The translations under genes and the position numbers were made by a program. DNA of 64,000 nucleotides from Chthonomonadales bacterium (GTDB lineage Bacteria; Armatimonadota; Chthonomonadetes; Chthonomonadales; CAJBBX01): contig JADLGO010000024.1 of assembly GCA_020849275.1 (NCBI GenBank), forward strand, positions 1-64,000, written 5' to 3'. How positions within the stretch are numbered: the stretch's first letter is position 1; every line of letters starts with the position of its first letter. The notes under the pieces are model-generated. The model had not been told where the DNA came from. It saw nothing but the letters and a program-made list of their open reading frames with translations, and ran no database searches. This document shows positions 20,782 to 27,990 of the stretch, one piece after another.

Positions 20782-23337
20782 TCAGGGGGCGGGGAAGGCG
20801 ATCGTCGTCTCGGGCTGGCCCAGAGCCGACACCGCCACGACCCCATCGCCTCCCACGGAGACGCGGCGCGCTTCGCCCGGAAGCAGCACCTGCCAGTAGC
20901 CCTCGGACAGGTAAGGCCCCGACCAGTCGGCCTTCGCGCTGGCCGCCGTGCCGAACACGGGCGCCCCGCCGTCCGCCTCCAGGCGCAGCGCGGAGCCCTC
21001 GGCGCTGACCGCTAGCCTGCCGGCCGCAGCCTCCAGAAGTGGCGCGAACGGGCGCTCGCCGGCAGTGGAGAACAGGTACTCGTTGTCGGCCAGAGAGCGG
21101 CCCTGCCCATCGCGCAGATCCAGGCGCAGCAGCACGATGCCGGGGCGCTCCGGCAGAGCGGCCTCGATGCGCGCAACGGGCACCGCGCCACCCACGCCGC
21201 CCCCCGCCGTCACGGCGATGGCGCCAGACGCGATCTCGCCGCCGGCCAACTCGATCAGCGTCCAGTGCACCGTCAGTCGCTCCTCCTCCTGGCCGGAGAC
21301 GTTCACCCACACGAAGGCGTGCCACGGCTCGCCGGGCTTCCACACGAGGCCGTCGTAGGCCGCGCTCACCAGGCGGTGAGCGTAGGCGCGGCGCATCACC
21401 CAGTAGGCCGGGCGGGGCATCCCGTAGTAGTCGAGCGAGTTCGTGCAGCTTGCGTTCGGCCAGGACTCGTTGTACTGCCAGGGCATCGACCCCGACGTGC
21501 GCCACTTGCGCCGTCGGCTGGCCTCCACCGCGTAGCGCAAGCCCTCGGCCTGGAGCCACTGGCTGGCTGGCACAAACGTTTCGATGTCCTCGATCCGGCC
21601 GAAGAGACCCTCGACGCGCGGCCGGTTGAGCCACCACGAGCCGTGATGCACCCAGCCGGCGTTGGTGGCATCGGGCGGCCAGAGGTAGCGCTCGGAGAAG
21701 GTACGCCGCAGCGTGGGCAGGTTGGCGGCGCCCTCAACCCCGAACTCCGAGTGCAGCAGCGGGTCGATCTCGTTGTAGAAGCCGTAGTGCTCCGGGTTAC
21801 CCATGTAGAGCCAGTGGCCATGCACGTCGTGCATCCGGCCGCGGAGTCCCGGCGACGCGCTGAACTCGGGACCGGAGGGCGAGCTAGGCAAGAAGATGCG
21901 GTCCGGGTCGAGCCGCTCGACGATCTCGCGCATGGCGGCGATGGTCGGATGGTCCATCGTCACCGGCCTCTGGTCGGAGGCGGTCGTCAGCTCGTTGCCG
22001 CCGCACCATATCACCAGCGACGGGTGGTTGGCGCGGCGCGGCACGATCTGCTCGGTCTGCTCGCGGGCGTACGCGATGTACCCAAGATCCGTGGGTGGCT
22101 CGTTGTCGATGCCAGAGCTGGAGTGGAACAACTCCTGCCAGACCATGATGCCGGCCTCGTCGCACAGGTCGTAGAAGAGCTCGCGCTCCAGCAGTCCGCC
22201 GCCCCACACGCGCAGGAGGTTGCAGTTGGCGTCGCGCGCCATGCGAATGGCGTGGCGGTACTGCTGCTCGTGCGCGCGGCCGTAGAGCTGGTCGATCGGA
22301 GCCCAGTTCCACCCCTTGATGAAGGTGCGTACGCCGTTCACCTCGAGCACATAGGGCAGGGCGTCGGGCGGCGCGCCGTCGTTCGCTACCGCGTGCACGG
22401 TGCGAAACCCGAACCTGCGCTCCTCGGTGTCGACGACGCGCCCCTCCTCATCGAGCAGTTCTGCCAGGGCGTGGTAGAGTGGCTGCGAGCCCGCGCCGTT
22501 CGGGAACCAGCGCCGTACCGCGTCGATCGTTACCCCGACGTCGATGTCAAGCATCTCGCTCTCGACGCCCACTCCCTGCTGAACCGCCGCGGCCACGGTG
22601 CCGTCCGGCGCGGTCACGCACAGGCGCAGGCGGCCGGTGAACGCGCGGATCCCCTCGACGCGCACGCGCGCGTGCACCTGCCCGTTCTCCTCGCCGTCGT
22701 CCGCGCGTGGATGAACCTGGAGCCCCACGATGCGCGCCGCGTCGAACGTCACGAGATCGACATCCTCCCATATCCCGAGCGGCACGAGGCGCGTGCACCA
22801 GTCCCACTGGTACGCGAAGCGCGGCTTCCAGATGCGGATCCGGCTGGTCCAACCGATCTGGCCGTGAGTCAGGTCCTCGGAAGGCGCGTGGTCGACGACG
22901 ATGACGAGGCGGTTGGGCCCCTCCGCGGTCAGCTTGCCCGTGGCGTCGAGCTCGAACGGCGTGTAGGTTCCCGCATGGTCGCCCAGGTGGTGACCGTTGA
23001 GGAACACGTGGCAGCCGTAGTCGACGCCCTCGAAACGCAGCCGGGCCGCCGCGGCAGCCTGCTCGGGGCTGCAGGCGAACTCCTTGCGGTAGACCCAGTC
23101 GCGCTGGCTCACCCATTCGCAGGCGCGGCTCTGCAAGTCGTGGCGCCAGTCCGGCAGCTCGCCGGCGTCGAGCAGGTCACTCTGCACGTCGCCGGGCACC
23201 GTCGCCGGGAGCCAGGGCGGGCATGCGGGCGCGATCGCGTCCAGGTTCGTCTCTGGCTTGCCCACGCCGCGCCACACCCATTCGGTGGGCACGAGCCCCA
23301 GGATCCTCCAGTCACTTCCGTTCAGCGAGATGCGCAT
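20782..23337 (-). CDS. Glycoside hydrolase family 2 beta-mannosidase
   Basis: An 851-residue GH2-type enzyme, probably beta-mannosidase, cleaving terminal beta-mannosides. It has the GH2 order: an N-terminal sugar-binding jellyroll (residues 1-180), an Ig-like domain, then a TIM barrel with NWAPIDQLYGR, LRVWGGGLLERELFYDLCDE and MVWQELFHSS. The acid/base Glu is in LVIWCGGNELTTAS near 430, and the nucleophile Glu in LLHSEFGVEGAANLPTLR near 535. No signal peptide is seen at the ATG at 23337 (GAGGAGG lies 12 bases upstream). An upstream ATG at 23373 lacks a ribosome binding site. A promoter at 23395-23423 drives it. Confidence 0.9.
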   Translation of the reverse strand: MRISLNGSDWRILGLVPTEWVWRGVGKPETNLDAIAPACPPWLPATVPGDVQSDLLDAGELPDWRHDLQSRACEWVSQRDWVYRKEFACSPEQAAAAARLRFEGVDYGCHVFLNGHHLGDHAGTYTPFELDATGKLTAEGPNRLVIVVDHAPSEDLTHGQIGWTSRIRIWKPRFAYQWDWCTRLVPLGIWEDVDLVTFDAARIVGLQVHPRADDGEENGQVHARVRVEGIRAFTGRLRLCVTAPDGTVAAAVQQGVGVESEMLDIDVGVTIDAVRRWFPNGAGSQPLYHALAELLDEEGRVVDTEERRFGFRTVHAVANDGAPPDALPYVLEVNGVRTFIKGWNWAPIDQLYGRAHEQQYRHAIRMARDANCNLLRVWGGGLLERELFYDLCDEAGIMVWQELFHSSSGIDNEPPTDLGYIAYAREQTEQIVPRRANHPSLVIWCGGNELTTASDQRPVTMDHPTIAAMREIVERLDPDRIFLPSSPSGPEFSASPGLRGRMHDVHGHWLYMGNPEHYGFYNEIDPLLHSEFGVEGAANLPTLRRTFSERYLWPPDATNAGWVHHGSWWLNRPRVEGLFGRIEDIETFVPASQWLQAEGLRYAVEASRRRKWRTSGSMPWQYNESWPNASCTNSLDYYGMPRPAYWVMRRAYAHRLVSAAYDGLVWKPGEPWHAFVWVNVSGQEEERLTVHWTLIELAGGEIASGAIAVTAGGGVGGAVPVARIEAALPERPGIVLLRLDLRDGQGRSLADNEYLFSTAGERPFAPLLEAAAGRLAVSAEGSALRLEADGGAPVFGTAASAKADWSGPYLSEGYWQVLLPGEARRVSVGGDGVVAVSALGQPETTIAFPAP

Positions 23338-23394
23338 GTCGTCGTTCGTCGGCCTCCTCGATAGCTGGCCCATCGTCCGGGCGCTGCAGCAACC

Positions 23395-23423
23395 AGTATA
23401 GGCCTCGGGCCAGTGCGCGTCAA
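23395..23423 (-). promoter_or_regulatory. Sigma70-type promoter for the GH2 gene
   Basis: On the minus strand TTGACG (23423-23418) and TATACT (23400-23395) are separated by exactly 17 bases. Transcription would start near 23388, about 50 bases upstream of the ATG at 23337. It lies just past the stop of the competence metallohydrolase gene at 23420. Confidence 0.75.
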
Positions 23424-24310
23424 GGGACCCGCCGAGGCCGCTCGAGGGCCGTCCGGATGCGCAGGCGCACGCCGTCGGACTCGACGCTCACCGTTCCGTC
23501 AAGATCCGTGCGGAACACGCGCGCGCCGCCGCGCCGCAGCGCGTCGAGCACGGCGGGGTGCGGGTGGCCGTAGACGTTGCCGCGCCCGACGGAGACTACC
23601 GCCGCGCCAGGGCGGCAGACCTCCAGCAGGGCGGGCGGCAGGCCACTGCGGCTGCCGTGGTGCGAGACCTTCAGCACGTCGGCGCGCAGGTCGAGGCGCG
23701 CGCGGAGCATGCACGCGATCGCTGCCTCCTGGGCGTCGCCCAACAGCAACAGCGCGGTAGATCCATAGCGGACTCGCGCCACCACGCAGCCGTCGTTGTC
23801 CGCCAGGGGCCCATCCGAGGGCCAATCGGCGGGCGGGTGCAGCACTTCGACCGTCACGCCGTCGTGGAATCTCAGTGACATCCCGCGCCCCACCGCTCGG
23901 ATCGGTACGCGCCCCGACCGGCAGCGTTCCAGGGCCTCGCGGGCGGCCTGCTCGTGGTCGCCGGGTGGCGAGACGAGAAGGCGGGGCGGCACCAGCAGCG
24001 ATGCCGGCCGCAGCCGGCGCACGAGCGTGGGAGCGCCGCCGGCGTGATCGTCGTCCGCGTGCGTGATGAGCAGGCCGTCGAGCGAGTCAATCATGCGCGC
24101 CCGGGCATACGGCACCACAGCGCGCCTGGCCGCGTCATCGCCGCCATCCCCGCGCCGGCCCGCGTCGACGGCGAGCGTGCCGCCGGAGGGGGTCTGGATC
24201 ACGATGGCATCGCCCTGTCCCACGTCCACGAACGTGACCGTGAGGGGCCGCCGCGCGCATCCGGCGAGCGCGCACGCGAGCACGGCAGCCGCCGCGGCCC
24301 GTCGCCTCAT
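23420..24310 (-). CDS. ComEC-type metallo-beta-lactamase domain, stand-alone lipoprotein
   Basis: A 296-residue protein corresponding to the C-terminal metallo-beta-lactamase-fold domain of ComEC. The start has a lipoprotein signal (AAAVLACALAGC, Cys near residue 18). Core motifs are TVTFVDVGQGDAIVIQTP, LLITHADDDHAGGAPTLV, LLGDAQEAAI and VLKVSHHGSRSGLP. These metal-binding elements are intact. It starts within the stop of the ComEC membrane gene (ATGA overlap), so the two halves of ComEC are adjacent but separate proteins. The separation suggests that the hydrolase is anchored to the membrane by lipid instead of being fused. Confidence 0.88.
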   Translation of the reverse strand: MRRRAAAAAVLACALAGCARRPLTVTFVDVGQGDAIVIQTPSGGTLAVDAGRRGDGGDDAARRAVVPYARARMIDSLDGLLITHADDDHAGGAPTLVRRLRPASLLVPPRLLVSPPGDHEQAAREALERCRSGRVPIRAVGRGMSLRFHDGVTVEVLHPPADWPSDGPLADNDGCVVARVRYGSTALLLLGDAQEAAIACMLRARLDLRADVLKVSHHGSRSGLPPALLEVCRPGAAVVSVGRGNVYGHPHPAVLDALRRGGARVFRTDLDGTVSVESDGVRLRIRTALERPRRVP

Positions 24311-25917
24311 CGTGGCTTGTTCCGGCGGCGCGCCCGCGACGCCACGGCCAGCGTGGCCGCCATCGCCGCGTACGCGCTCCAGAGGGTTGCCCAGCCAGGG
24401 CTGCCGGCTGGCACGGCGCCCGGGAGCGACGCACACGCCCGCACGACGCACACGAGGTAGCCGACAAGCGGCGCGAGCAGTTGACGCGCGAGGAGGTCGC
24501 CGGCCCACGGGCTCGCGAGACCGACGGCATAGGCCGCGAGTGCGGCGAGCGTGAGCGCGGGCACTGCCGGGGCTGCGAGCAGCGTCGCGAAGGCGCCCAG
24601 CAGAGGTACCTGGTGGAAGTGAAGGGCCGTGAGCGGCCAGGCCGTGGCCTGGGCCGCTACCGCCACGGTCAGCGCCGCGCCCAGCCGGCTACCCACCGGG
24701 CGGGCAAGGCGCCGCCACCGCGTGTCGCCCGGGCGCCGCGCGCGCGCGGAGCGCCACAGGTCCTCGGCGAGCGGCGCCGCCGCCACGATGCCCGCCACCA
24801 CGACGAACGAGAGCTGGAACGCCGGGTCGTGCAGGTTGGCCGGGTTGGCGACGACCAGGGCGATGGCCGCCGCGGCCAGCGCGTTCCAGGTGTCGCAGTG
24901 TCTGCTGAGGAGCCTCCCGGCGAGCAGCGCGGTGGCCATCACGTCGGCGCGAATGACGGCGGGGCGAGCGCCGGTCGCCAGCGTGTAGGCGGCCAGCACT
25001 CCGGCGGCAGCCAGCGTGGAGTCGCGCCGGCCCAGGCGCGCGAGCCGGCAGAGGAACAGGGTGCCGAGGGCGACCAGTCCAACGTTGAGGCCGGACGCTG
25101 CGAGCAGGTGCGCGGTGCCGGTCTCCGCGAAGTCGTCGGCGAGGTCCGGAGGCAGCGCGGCGCTCCCGCCGAAGACGAGGCCGGCGAGGAGGGCCGCGTC
25201 GGCGGGCGGGAGAGCGCGCTCCATGGCGCGCCCGAGGCCGCGCCGGCAGCGCAGGGCGAGGCGCGTGGGGCGATCGGCCAGCGAGGCCGAGGGCGGCAGG
25301 ACGCGCCATGCGCCGGCGGAACGTGGTGTGAGAACGGCGGCGATGCCGCGTCGCGCGAGGTGAGCCGCGTCGTCGTAGCCGCCTGGAACCCGGGCGGGCC
25401 GCGGGGCCTCCAGGCGGCCCACCGCCTGAAGGGTGTCGCCGTATTCGGGCGCGCGGGTACCGGGCACGGCGCGCAGGCGGAGCCTGATCAGGCCGCTAGC
25501 GGCCGCCGGCGCGCCGGCCACCTCGGGAGTCCAGGCGCGGCGCACGAGCAGGTCGCAGGCGATGGACCCGCCGCGCCGGACGTCCGCATCGCTCGCCACA
25601 ATCCCGGCCACGCCAACCGTCGGGAGCCCGGCCAGTCGGCCCACGTCGTCGGGGGAGGGCGCCCGCGCGGCCCAGGCGCGCAGGGCGCCGGCCGCCGCGA
25701 CGGCCATCAGGATCGCCGCCCAACCCGCCCGGCGCCCGCGCGCCAGCAGGACGGATGCCGTGGCGGCGCACGCGAGGGCGACGAGTGGGGCGGTACCGTG
25801 GGCGCCGGCCAGCGAGCCGGCGATCAGGAAGCCGACGACGAGGACGAGGGGCCGTCGGCGCCAGGCGGCGTCGAGCGAGGACGCGCAGCGACCGACGGCG
25901 ATGGCAGGCGCCGGCAT
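24307..25917 (-). CDS. comEC: ComEC/Rec2 family competence membrane channel
   Basis: DNA uptake channel of natural transformation. Residues 20-75 hold membrane helices, followed by a DUF4131-like soluble domain, then the competence domain with ETGTAHLLAASGLNVGLVAL near residues 270-290, the ComEC signature, and about eight helices to the end. The product is 536 residues; typical ComEC is about 700-800 because its beta-lactamase-like domain is fused, while here that domain is the next gene. GGAGGAG stands seven bases upstream of the ATG at 25917. The other competence genes are not in this window, though pilin-like genes occur at 13231 and 18263. Confidence 0.9.
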   Translation of the reverse strand: MPAPAIAVGRCASSLDAAWRRRPLVLVVGFLIAGSLAGAHGTAPLVALACAATASVLLARGRRAGWAAILMAVAAAGALRAWAARAPSPDDVGRLAGLPTVGVAGIVASDADVRRGGSIACDLLVRRAWTPEVAGAPAAASGLIRLRLRAVPGTRAPEYGDTLQAVGRLEAPRPARVPGGYDDAAHLARRGIAAVLTPRSAGAWRVLPPSASLADRPTRLALRCRRGLGRAMERALPPADAALLAGLVFGGSAALPPDLADDFAETGTAHLLAASGLNVGLVALGTLFLCRLARLGRRDSTLAAAGVLAAYTLATGARPAVIRADVMATALLAGRLLSRHCDTWNALAAAAIALVVANPANLHDPAFQLSFVVVAGIVAAAPLAEDLWRSARARRPGDTRWRRLARPVGSRLGAALTVAVAAQATAWPLTALHFHQVPLLGAFATLLAAPAVPALTLAALAAYAVGLASPWAGDLLARQLLAPLVGYLVCVVRACASLPGAVPAGSPGWATLWSAYAAMAATLAVASRARRRNKPR

Positions 25918-25965
25918 GGCGACGCTCCTCCGGGCGATGCCCGGGACGCGGCCAACGACGGCCGA

Positions 25966-27990
25966 TCAGATGAAGATCTTGTAGACCTGCAGGCCGTTGA
26001 GCGGGCCGTAGATGGCCCACAGCGACCCGGCCACGTAGTCTCCCAGGATGAGGCCCAGGAAGAACGGCACGCCGGCGTTGTGCGCCTTCATGCCACCGAA
26101 GCGCACGATGATGAACTTCAGGAGCCAGCTGACGAAGAAGGCGAACCAGAAGTAGTCCATCGCGAACGAGACGGCGAGCGCGTAACCGGCCGGGTGGAAC
26201 GGCCACCATAGGAGCGCACCTCGCAGGACACGCAGGCCCAGGACCATGAGCGCGCCGCCGACCACGTACGCGATCTGCGTACGGTCGGGCCGCGTGGGCG
26301 TCTGGAGCCATCCGTTCAGGCGATCATAGGACTCGAAGCCGACCCACTGCTTGAACCCGACCGCCTTGCCAGTCGCTCCCGCCGAGTACGTGACGTTGAG
26401 GTTCGCCCAGCAGGCGCAGATCGTCGCAAAGACGGTGGCGCCCACGATCAGCAGCACGAGCCGATTGATCTGCATCCGGCCGCCCTCCGCCATCTTGAAC
26501 GCCTCGATGTGGTTGGGCATCGGGTGGCAGCGGTAGCAGCGGTTGTACCAGTAGAGCACCGACATCGTCGTCAGGCTCTGAGCCCCGACGGCGTTCACGC
26601 CGAAGAGGGTAACCAGCACCGTCCGCGGGTTCACGAAGAAGATCTCGTGCGGGCTGCCGAACTCGGCGCGCACGCGGGTGATGGCGACCGCCAGCAGGAA
26701 GAAGAGGCCAAAGAAGATGATGGCCACCCATGCGGACATCGCGGTGCGCCACGTGAACCACGACAGGAAGAGGACTCCCGCGGCCAGGCCGGCGTAGGCG
26801 CCGCGGTAGCGCCGACGCTCGTCGCTGTCGCCCGCGCTCTCGCCTGCCGCCAGGCGGTCGCGGGAGAAGGCGATCTGCCAGGTGCGGACGACGTGGCCGC
26901 GCAGGGACCACACGATGACGGCCCCGAGCGCGATCCAGGCGCCGCTCGACTGCTGCTCGAAGAACGGAAAGCCCACATTGGACGGCGCGTCCCAGCCCGC
27001 CATCGCGCCGACCACCTGGAAGCCCTTGCGCGCCACGTAGAAGAACCAGCACGAGAAGGCCAGATCGAGGGGAAGAAAGTAGGCCAGGCCGATCGCGAAC
27101 GGATACATCGAGATCGGCGTCCAGCCCATCGCGTTCCAGGGCCGCTGCGTGAAGTACGGAGCCAGATCAAAGAGCTTCACCTGCGCCAGATAGGGCCAGG
27201 AGGGATAGAGGTAGTGCATCCCGTTGACGAAGTCGATGGTCGCCGCCACCGCGAACCCGCCCCACATGATCCGGCTGCGCCAGAATGGCTGCGAGCGCGC
27301 CTCCGGGTTGGTCATCGCCAGCGGAAGCTGTACGATGGGGAAGGCGAGCTTCTCGTTCTCCGTCCACGCCTTGCGGATCAGGATGCTCAAGCAGAGGCAC
27401 ATGCCGATGAGGACGCCCAGGAACAGCGTCCACCAGAGCAGGGGCGCCAGAAAGGGGTAGAGGTACCGGGGATCAGACCAGTGCACGCCGCCCTGGTAGA
27501 AGGCCTTGATGGCCTGCGGGTCGCGGACGAGAAGGAAGCTCGATGGCTTCAGATAGGCGAAGAAGGTGCGCTCGTAGCCCCGCTCCGGGGTGTTGAACCG
27601 CTCGGCGTGGGCGATACTGCCGAACAGGTTCTGAATCAGGTCGTGGCCGGCCAACACACAACCGATGACGAGCATCACGTAGACGGTCAGCAGCTCGCCC
27701 TGGTCGAACGCAGCGCGCCGGCTGAAGCGGCGTAGCGCGAAGTTGGCCCCACACAGAAGGAACAGGAAGAAGACGGGAGTGATGAACAGCGGCAGGCAGG
27801 TTCCGTCCAGCGTGTACCAGCGGACCTCGACGACCGTGATCCAGTAGGCATTAACGATCATGAGGAGCATGCCGAGCAGGACCGCGCGCGCGGTGACCCC
27901 TCGGGATGCGTGCGGCGCCGGGTGGGGAGCGTCTTCGTGAATCCCGTCTTCGCGAGCGGGTGGGGTGGGGACGGGCGTGGCCATGTGCAT
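25966..27990 (-). CDS. Multi-pass membrane protein, DUF6785-like
   Basis: A 674-residue integral membrane protein with about 13-15 hydrophobic segments. It resembles the DUF6785/DUF6784 proteins of Planctomycetes, Verrucomicrobia and Armatimonadota, which I place from memory of their conserved sequence (RWYTLDGTCLPLFITPVFF near residue 55, and WRTAMSAWVAIIFFGLFFL). It may be related to oligopeptide transporters, but no substrate can be named. The N-terminus of about 30 residues is charged and Pro-rich. Promoter -10 element ends six bases before the ATG, so the transcript would carry almost no leader. A second ATG lies two codons further in (27984). Confidence 0.75.
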   Translation of the reverse strand: MHMATPVPTPPAREDGIHEDAPHPAPHASRGVTARAVLLGMLLMIVNAYWITVVEVRWYTLDGTCLPLFITPVFFLFLLCGANFALRRFSRRAAFDQGELLTVYVMLVIGCVLAGHDLIQNLFGSIAHAERFNTPERGYERTFFAYLKPSSFLLVRDPQAIKAFYQGGVHWSDPRYLYPFLAPLLWWTLFLGVLIGMCLCLSILIRKAWTENEKLAFPIVQLPLAMTNPEARSQPFWRSRIMWGGFAVAATIDFVNGMHYLYPSWPYLAQVKLFDLAPYFTQRPWNAMGWTPISMYPFAIGLAYFLPLDLAFSCWFFYVARKGFQVVGAMAGWDAPSNVGFPFFEQQSSGAWIALGAVIVWSLRGHVVRTWQIAFSRDRLAAGESAGDSDERRRYRGAYAGLAAGVLFLSWFTWRTAMSAWVAIIFFGLFFLLAVAITRVRAEFGSPHEIFFVNPRTVLVTLFGVNAVGAQSLTTMSVLYWYNRCYRCHPMPNHIEAFKMAEGGRMQINRLVLLIVGATVFATICACWANLNVTYSAGATGKAVGFKQWVGFESYDRLNGWLQTPTRPDRTQIAYVVGGALMVLGLRVLRGALLWWPFHPAGYALAVSFAMDYFWFAFFVSWLLKFIIVRFGGMKAHNAGVPFFLGLILGDYVAGSLWAIYGPLNGLQVYKIFI

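Follow-up and report, generated by a model that had tools for sequence, protein, structure and literature searches.

ComEC/Rec2, as defined by TIGR00361, carries an OB fold, a Competence domain and a metallo-beta-lactamase-like (MBL) domain with HxDxDH and HHGS motifs. The locus described here has all of these in common with it, as well as the best matches of both its halves, but here they are divided between two polypeptides and the putative nuclease is anchored independently. EndA, a pneumococcal nuclease, is not known to be related to the MBL fold. According to excerpts of PMC8579336, EndA of Streptococcus pneumoniae is likewise a nuclease on its own, anchored to the membrane, and breaks down the non-transforming strand. 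The S. pneumoniae ComEC, unlike the one considered here, nevertheless retains an MBL domain of its own. As reported in the accessible parts of PMC12455585, the MBL domain of ComEC acts as a Mn-dependent exonuclease (5'-3') and as an endonuclease, transformation depends on a loop next to it, and the nuclease of M. glycerini works about seven-fold faster in vitro when its chain also carries the OB fold. When the motif II aspartates are lost in B. subtilis, transformation falls 10- to 100-fold (PMC8579336, in excerpt).

The accessible text of PMC6299819, which counts domains within one protein, reports that 2,583 of 4,935 proteins with a Competence domain also have Lactamase_B in their chain. The sequence-only reading from which our analysis set out had held the two domains to be one protein in most bacteria; the fused form is indeed known, but on these figures its share is closer to half. 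A ComEC profile designated 'DC' in the same text is without the C-terminal nuclease domain, and the channel half of our locus, taken alone, likewise scores DUF4131 plus Competence without Lactamase_B; in our case, the putative nuclease is present in trans, where a one-protein domain count would miss it. Surveys such as this one count domains per protein, so that a nuclease made in trans would be read as a loss. The words separate, split, adjacent, standalone and lipoprotein were not found in PMC6299819, and no description of a ComEC split with its nuclease in trans was found in those portions of the open-licence full-text literature that were accessible. Hvo_1477 of Haloferax, considered as a precedent, is not a ComEC homologue according to excerpts of PMC3929857. 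How the non-transforming strand is degraded when ComEC lacks the nuclease domain is an open question in the excerpted text of PMC8579336.

The window, by which we mean the whole stretch of 64,000 nucleotides analysed from a Chthonomonadales bacterium (Armatimonadota), contains the following features.

24307..25917, minus strand: comEC channel half (DUF4131/OB fold and Competence domain), 536 aa, with an ATG start; from Pfam and an AlphaFold model
23420..24310, minus strand: free ComEC-type MBL (nuclease-like) protein, 296 aa; from the ORF, Pfam, and sequence and structure matches
24307..24310, minus strand: ATGA stop/start overlap of the channel and MBL genes, 4 bases, from the sequence
24257..24310, minus strand: signal sequence of the MBL protein, ending in the lipobox LAGC (Cys18 codon at 24257-24259)
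25315..25785, minus strand: DUF4131 (OB fold) part of the channel half; Pfam, residues 45-201, with model strands at 101-207
24343..25179, minus strand: Competence (channel) domain; Pfam
24044..24061, minus strand: HADDDH metal-binding motif (HxDxDH), MBL residues 84-89, from the alignment
23651..23662, minus strand: HHGS motif, MBL residues 217-220, from the alignment
23561..23578, minus strand: NVYGHP, equivalent of the strand-separating 'pin' loop, from the alignment; equivalence to the loop in the excerpted PMC12455585 counted by hand
25925..25931, minus strand: Shine-Dalgarno-like GGAGGAG ahead of comEC, read from the sequence

Two separate genes of 536 and 296 residues overlapping by ATGA, the second with its own lipobox, had been proposed from the sequence alone. 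Both ORFs were recovered exactly as placed, and the MBL N-terminus does read ...ACALAGC, with the cysteine at residue 18. The MBL start has a weak Shine-Dalgarno-like site and none comparable in strength to the good GGAGGAG of comEC, which fits translational coupling and suggests that the MBL gene is translated by coupling to comEC. The MBL ORF stays open further upstream and would reach 362 aa if counted from a GTG; we prefer the ATG start (296 aa) because relatives start at the same position. On the upstream side (25966-27990, minus strand) lies a gene for a DUF6785/DUF6784 membrane protein, which adjoins comEC also in G004, G007 and G010 and, from a sister family, in G012; on the downstream side (20782-23373, minus strand) lies a glycosyl hydrolase family 2 gene, which adjoins the MBL gene also in G007 and G010. 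For neither neighbour is a link to DNA uptake known.

In Pfam searches, the channel half scored 72.2 bits for DUF4131 and 165.7 bits for Competence (PF03772, cut-off 23), and the MBL protein 52 bits for Lactamase_B. The nearest solved sequences to the MBL protein are ComEC chains (30bt, E 7e-47; 9ic4, E 2.6e-46), and its AlphaFold-type model (pLDDT 91.2) finds its best structural match in 9ic4, a ComEC MBL domain (E 3e-29, TM 0.83, 36% identity). The channel half aligns in the sequence search with residues 11-485 of the 801-residue ComEC chain 30bt. A fold search with its AlphaFold model (mean pLDDT 88.1) returned OB-domain-sized matches only, none under E 0.001, the OB part matching best the ComEC OB NMR structure 9iew (E 6.5e-3); the full-length ComEC chains 30bt and 9vc6, both matched by sequence, were not among the best 50 fold-search matches listed. 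With 89.7 and 126.7 bits, neither half reaches the TIGR00361 (ComEC/Rec2) cut-off of 190.05 bits, and since no single polypeptide does so, we file the locus as a split variant rather than as a canonical ComEC/Rec2.

The C-terminal nuclease-type MBL domain is present as a separate protein with the metal ligands of ComEC, and its motif residues are conserved. H84, D88 and H89 of HADDDH are invariant in the MBL alignment, as are HHG of HHGS, its serine being nearly so, and N, G, H and P of NVYGHP, the hexapeptide that by hand count corresponds to the loop described in the accessible parts of PMC12455585. The HHGS serine aligns with position 728 of chain 30bt_A, the number given in the same excerpts to the substrate serine of M. 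glycerini ComEC. An antibiotic-hydrolysing B3 metallo-beta-lactamase was rejected as an identity (52 bits against the blaAHM cut-off of 590), and so was membership of a defence system, matches to MBL-containing defence proteins being weak and partial.

Ahead of DVGQGD, fused relatives have a hydrophobic segment with a short linker. Where the genes are split, the channel stops short of this segment, the last hydrophobic helix of the fused protein, and the free MBL begins with it; the helix has thus turned into the N-terminal anchor of a separate MBL. Most free MBLs keep an ordinary N-terminal hydrophobic (transmembrane) anchor. By the positive-inside rule, N-terminal positive charge is related to topology. 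A net positive charge lies ahead of the hydrophobic segment in 54 of 58 adjacent anchors, which predicts that the MBL domain is exported and lies outside the inner membrane. The topology check suggested beforehand thus yields a hydrolase predicted to face the periplasm.

In the window's genome, the anchor may be a lipid. The window MBL conforms to a strict lipobox rule that we take to be like PS51257: an n-region beginning MRRR, an h-region, and LAGC with its cysteine at residue 18 (allowed range 15-35). Its hydrophobic core is short (13 residues), and the genome has the signal peptidase II gene LspA (PF01252, 130 bits). Under the same rule, the window protein is the only one to fit among 64 adjacent or near split proteins, 63 failing, and 4 of 20 unlinked orthologues fit (G029, G042, G064 and G070), 16 failing; one further adjacent row, whose N-terminus was very short, had been removed by a length filter. 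LTGC of G068, missed by the strict rule owing to a proline, was counted by eye, which makes six proteins in four lineages: the window, G029, family f15 and G070. In all six, the cysteine stands 12-17 residues ahead of VGQG. The distance is only 12 in the window, so that the MBL domain would have to sit at the membrane surface, as in fused ComEC. Of the two placements offered by the sequence-only reading, the outer face of the inner membrane fits this geometry, but a site 'elsewhere in the envelope' is unlikely.

Could the window's lipobox be a chance resemblance, in a protein held by a short helix or else cleaved and released? Fused proteins, in which no lipid anchor is possible, serve as a control for the motif. 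Lipobox-like motifs occur in 6 of 85 split proteins and in one of 73 fused controls (L046, at a comparable place), an excess that is not significant (Fisher p 0.12); two of the 17 fused rows, those without a VGQG match, were dropped from this control. Ala/Leu/Gly-rich helices readily give such motifs, and the window's solitary fit among the 64 proteins also agrees with chance. Against this stand the recurrence of a cysteine at the helix end, 12-17 residues before VGQG, in G029, G042, G064, G068 and G070, the short hydrophobic core in the window and the presence of LspA, and we regard chance resemblance as less likely than not. The motif is commoner in unlinked than in adjacent copies (4/20 versus 2/65, p 0.025, which is not a fair probability as the loci were chosen by state), a small-number hint that unlinked copies may favour a lipobox. 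Lipid anchoring of the free MBL is plausible as a predicted minority variant; as a general rule it was rejected, most free MBLs carrying transmembrane anchors. The emphasis first put on the lipid anchor should therefore be reduced: the motif is present in the window's MBL, but with 63 of 64 and 16 of 20 proteins failing the strict rule, the anchor does not make the arrangement.

To survey the phylum, we searched 205 genomes, at least 90% complete, with Competence and MBL profiles. Competence was found in at least 201 of the 205 and the MBL profile, at E <= 1e-45, in at least 158. Using the matches listed, together with seven Competence rows and a few MBL rows added from separate searches, 157 genomes were classified. 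The two genes are adjacent in 58, the MBL lies elsewhere in the genome in 33, the protein is fused in 24 and fused by length in 5 more, and the MBL lies 1.1 kb on in one. The other 36 have no listed MBL row (14 with no match at E <= 1e-45, 22 not among the matches listed), absence there being unproven. Among the 33 genomes with the MBL elsewhere, f28 (10), f32 (2) and G165 belong by tree or family to a paralogue clade, which leaves about 20 orthologues. Unlinked MBL and comEC genes were found on the same long contig in G002 (194 kb apart), G017 (27 kb), G042 (about 498 kb), G070 (33 kb) and G167 (about 488 kb), and the unlinked state is thus not merely an effect of contig ends. The loci analysed in detail (64 adjacent, 17 fused, 12 unlinked) were chosen by state and do not represent frequencies.

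Not every unlinked MBL is part of a split ComEC. Those of f28, f32, G050 and G165, and extra copies in G024, G036, G040 and G046, form a separate clade of ComEC-like MBLs, mostly long-linker lipoproteins, that occur beside fused or split ComEC; in f28 and f32, the accompanying ComEC has no MBL domain. The clade comprises loci L108, L109, L110, L112, L113, L239, L241, L244, L247-L250 and L252-L254. Its members share the ComEC type and an anchor with the window MBL, but differ in their mostly long linker and their separate position. The window MBL is not one of them, as it groups with the adjacent-split copies of its own family in the MBL tree, and the channel tree agrees. We also excluded by hand from the orthologues a second MBL in G035 (L115), which sits on a long branch.

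In the MBL tree (115 rows), copies group by taxonomic family and not by architecture, and in family f3 fused, adjacent and unlinked genes are intermixed in one group. Once the paralogues are taken out (99 rows), the tree requires 7 switches between fused and split and 17 between any of the three states, and the hypothesis that all fused copies form one clade is rejected (p-AU 0.0009); the Competence tree (118 rows) has 7 fused/not-fused changes. These are quick LG+G4 trees supported by SH-aLRT only, and we assign no direction, fission or re-fusion, to the changes. Named relatives of the window MBL are themselves Armatimonadota (uncultured Chthonomonas and Armatimonadetes MAGs, L117-L119). Judged from these genomes and trees, the two-gene ComEC is a real, recurrent form in the phylum. 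No second orthologous MBL was found in genomes with fused ComEC (0/17), the extra MBLs of G036 and G046 falling in the separate paralogue clade. A ComEC-type MBL was absent at E <= 1e-15, despite the presence of the channel, in G033, G047, G060 (f6), G043, G056 (f16) and G041 (f14), and the nuclease may thus be dispensable for the role of the channel in several lineages.

We consider it probable that the locus encodes a ComEC of two subunits, with the nuclease acting in trans at the periplasmic surface of the inner membrane. Gene structure, conservation of the catalytic residues, orthology with the fused domain, the position of the break, purifying selection in relatives and the presence of other competence genes are established at the level of sequence. 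The first gene would supply the channel for DNA in the inner membrane, together with its periplasmic OB fold, and the second the ComEC nuclease as a protein of its own, which an N-terminal signal stemming from the final transmembrane helix of fused ComEC would presumably export. On the periplasmic face, a lipid on Cys18 would anchor the nuclease in the window's genome, and a transmembrane helix would do so in most relatives. The ATGA overlap may couple translation of the two proteins. The free MBL might then re-associate with the channel mouth, taking the same place in trans, and there would degrade the non-imported strand as the attached domain does elsewhere.

Several lines of evidence support the two-subunit ComEC. 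The closest relatives of each half are the matching ComEC parts, at least seven changes between fused and split forms accompany the rejection of a single fused clade, and fused genomes have no second orthologue. The window's genome also has DprA, a ComEA-type protein and five PilT-family genes over the cut-off (G000:C1, C11, C22; three side by side on C11), in addition to LspA. Several points count against this reading: the split gives up the gain in rate provided by an OB fold on the same chain, the lineages named above keep a channel with no ComEC-type MBL found at E <= 1e-15, and ComEC-like MBL paralogues exist that have no known link to transformation. Indeed, such lipoprotein paralogues adjoin fused or split ComEC in G036, G046, G040 and G024, and the gene is unlinked in 33 of the 157 genomes classified from the matches listed (about 20 of them with orthologues), as might be expected if the MBL were functionally detached from ComEC, a membrane-anchored nuclease or phosphodiesterase feeding on extracellular DNA or nucleotides and lying beside comEC by history. 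We find such detachment rather improbable, given that the active-site, HHGS and pin-loop residues stay conserved, that fused and free copies interconvert on the tree, and that a genome with fused ComEC keeps no orthologous copy besides.

Within the window's own family (12 genomes, the window included), the split is adjacent in 11 and no genome is fused; in G002, the MBL gene lies 194 kb from comEC on the same contig. The 4-base overlap is common to 9 of the 11 adjacent splits and occurs at 16 of the 64 adjacent-split loci of the phylum. In six close pairs of adjacent-split relatives, dN/dS is about 0.05-0.24 for the MBL gene and about 0.09-0.28 for the channel gene, values which place both under purifying selection. 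A small frame change would join both halves in one frame, but with separate adjacent genes in 11 of 12 family genomes and at 64 loci of the phylum (window included), and with selection acting on both halves, the relatives rule out a sequencing error or a recent frameshift pseudogene of a fused comEC, whose probability we regard as negligible. The sequence-only reading had named fused orthologues in all close relatives as a result that would refute the split; with none of the 12 family genomes fused, the split is borne out.

Outside the phylum, the 80 named loci found with the window MBL comprised 58 fused, 14 with the MBL alone and 8 adjacent, the last being L117-L119, from within the phylum, and five Clostridia loci (L134, L140, L146, L149 and L163). 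We rejected L134, L146, L149 and L163 as further splits, since their channel gene appears to contain a +1 frameshift. At these four loci, from uncultured Clostridia, and also at L140, comEC is read as two ORFs that share 71-131 nt where the frame shifts by +1. The four shift at one and the same position, where CTT CGG precedes GCC or ACC, and CGG is in-frame nowhere else in their 12,498 ORF residues; in L140, the shift lies elsewhere, at ATT CGG CAT. Frameshifting at a rare or unassigned Arg codon is a candidate explanation.

The genomes of the 14 loci with the MBL alone were searched for Competence, and two gave no match (L125, L188). Nine have a Competence frame of 685-786 aa, and their free MBL is probably a paralogue. 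The other three combine a ComEC of 524-561 aa, a length that fits the two-protein form, with a free anchored MBL (L184; L191, an Erysipelotrichaceae MAG; L195, a Nealsonbacteria MAG). Free MBLs of Lederbergia, Kurthia and Chloroflexi are also of the ComEC type with a lipid or transmembrane anchor, but their genomes, unlike that of the window, additionally hold a ComEC frame of 702-786 aa.

In conclusion, one phylum shows the same orthologous putative nuclease fused to its channel, adjacent to it or unlinked, with repeated switching between these states, and this switching provides natural experiments on the question of whether the channel and its nuclease need to share a chain. We tentatively propose that two-subunit DNA uptake channels with a free anchored nuclease exist, that the gene and its anchor, whether helix or lipid, are free to move, and that part of the ComEC proteins regarded as 'CTD-less' may represent this form. 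A free ComEC-type MBL would then be predicted in other 'CTD-less' transformable bacteria, and some bacteria thought to be without the nuclease part of ComEC may make it as a separate protein.
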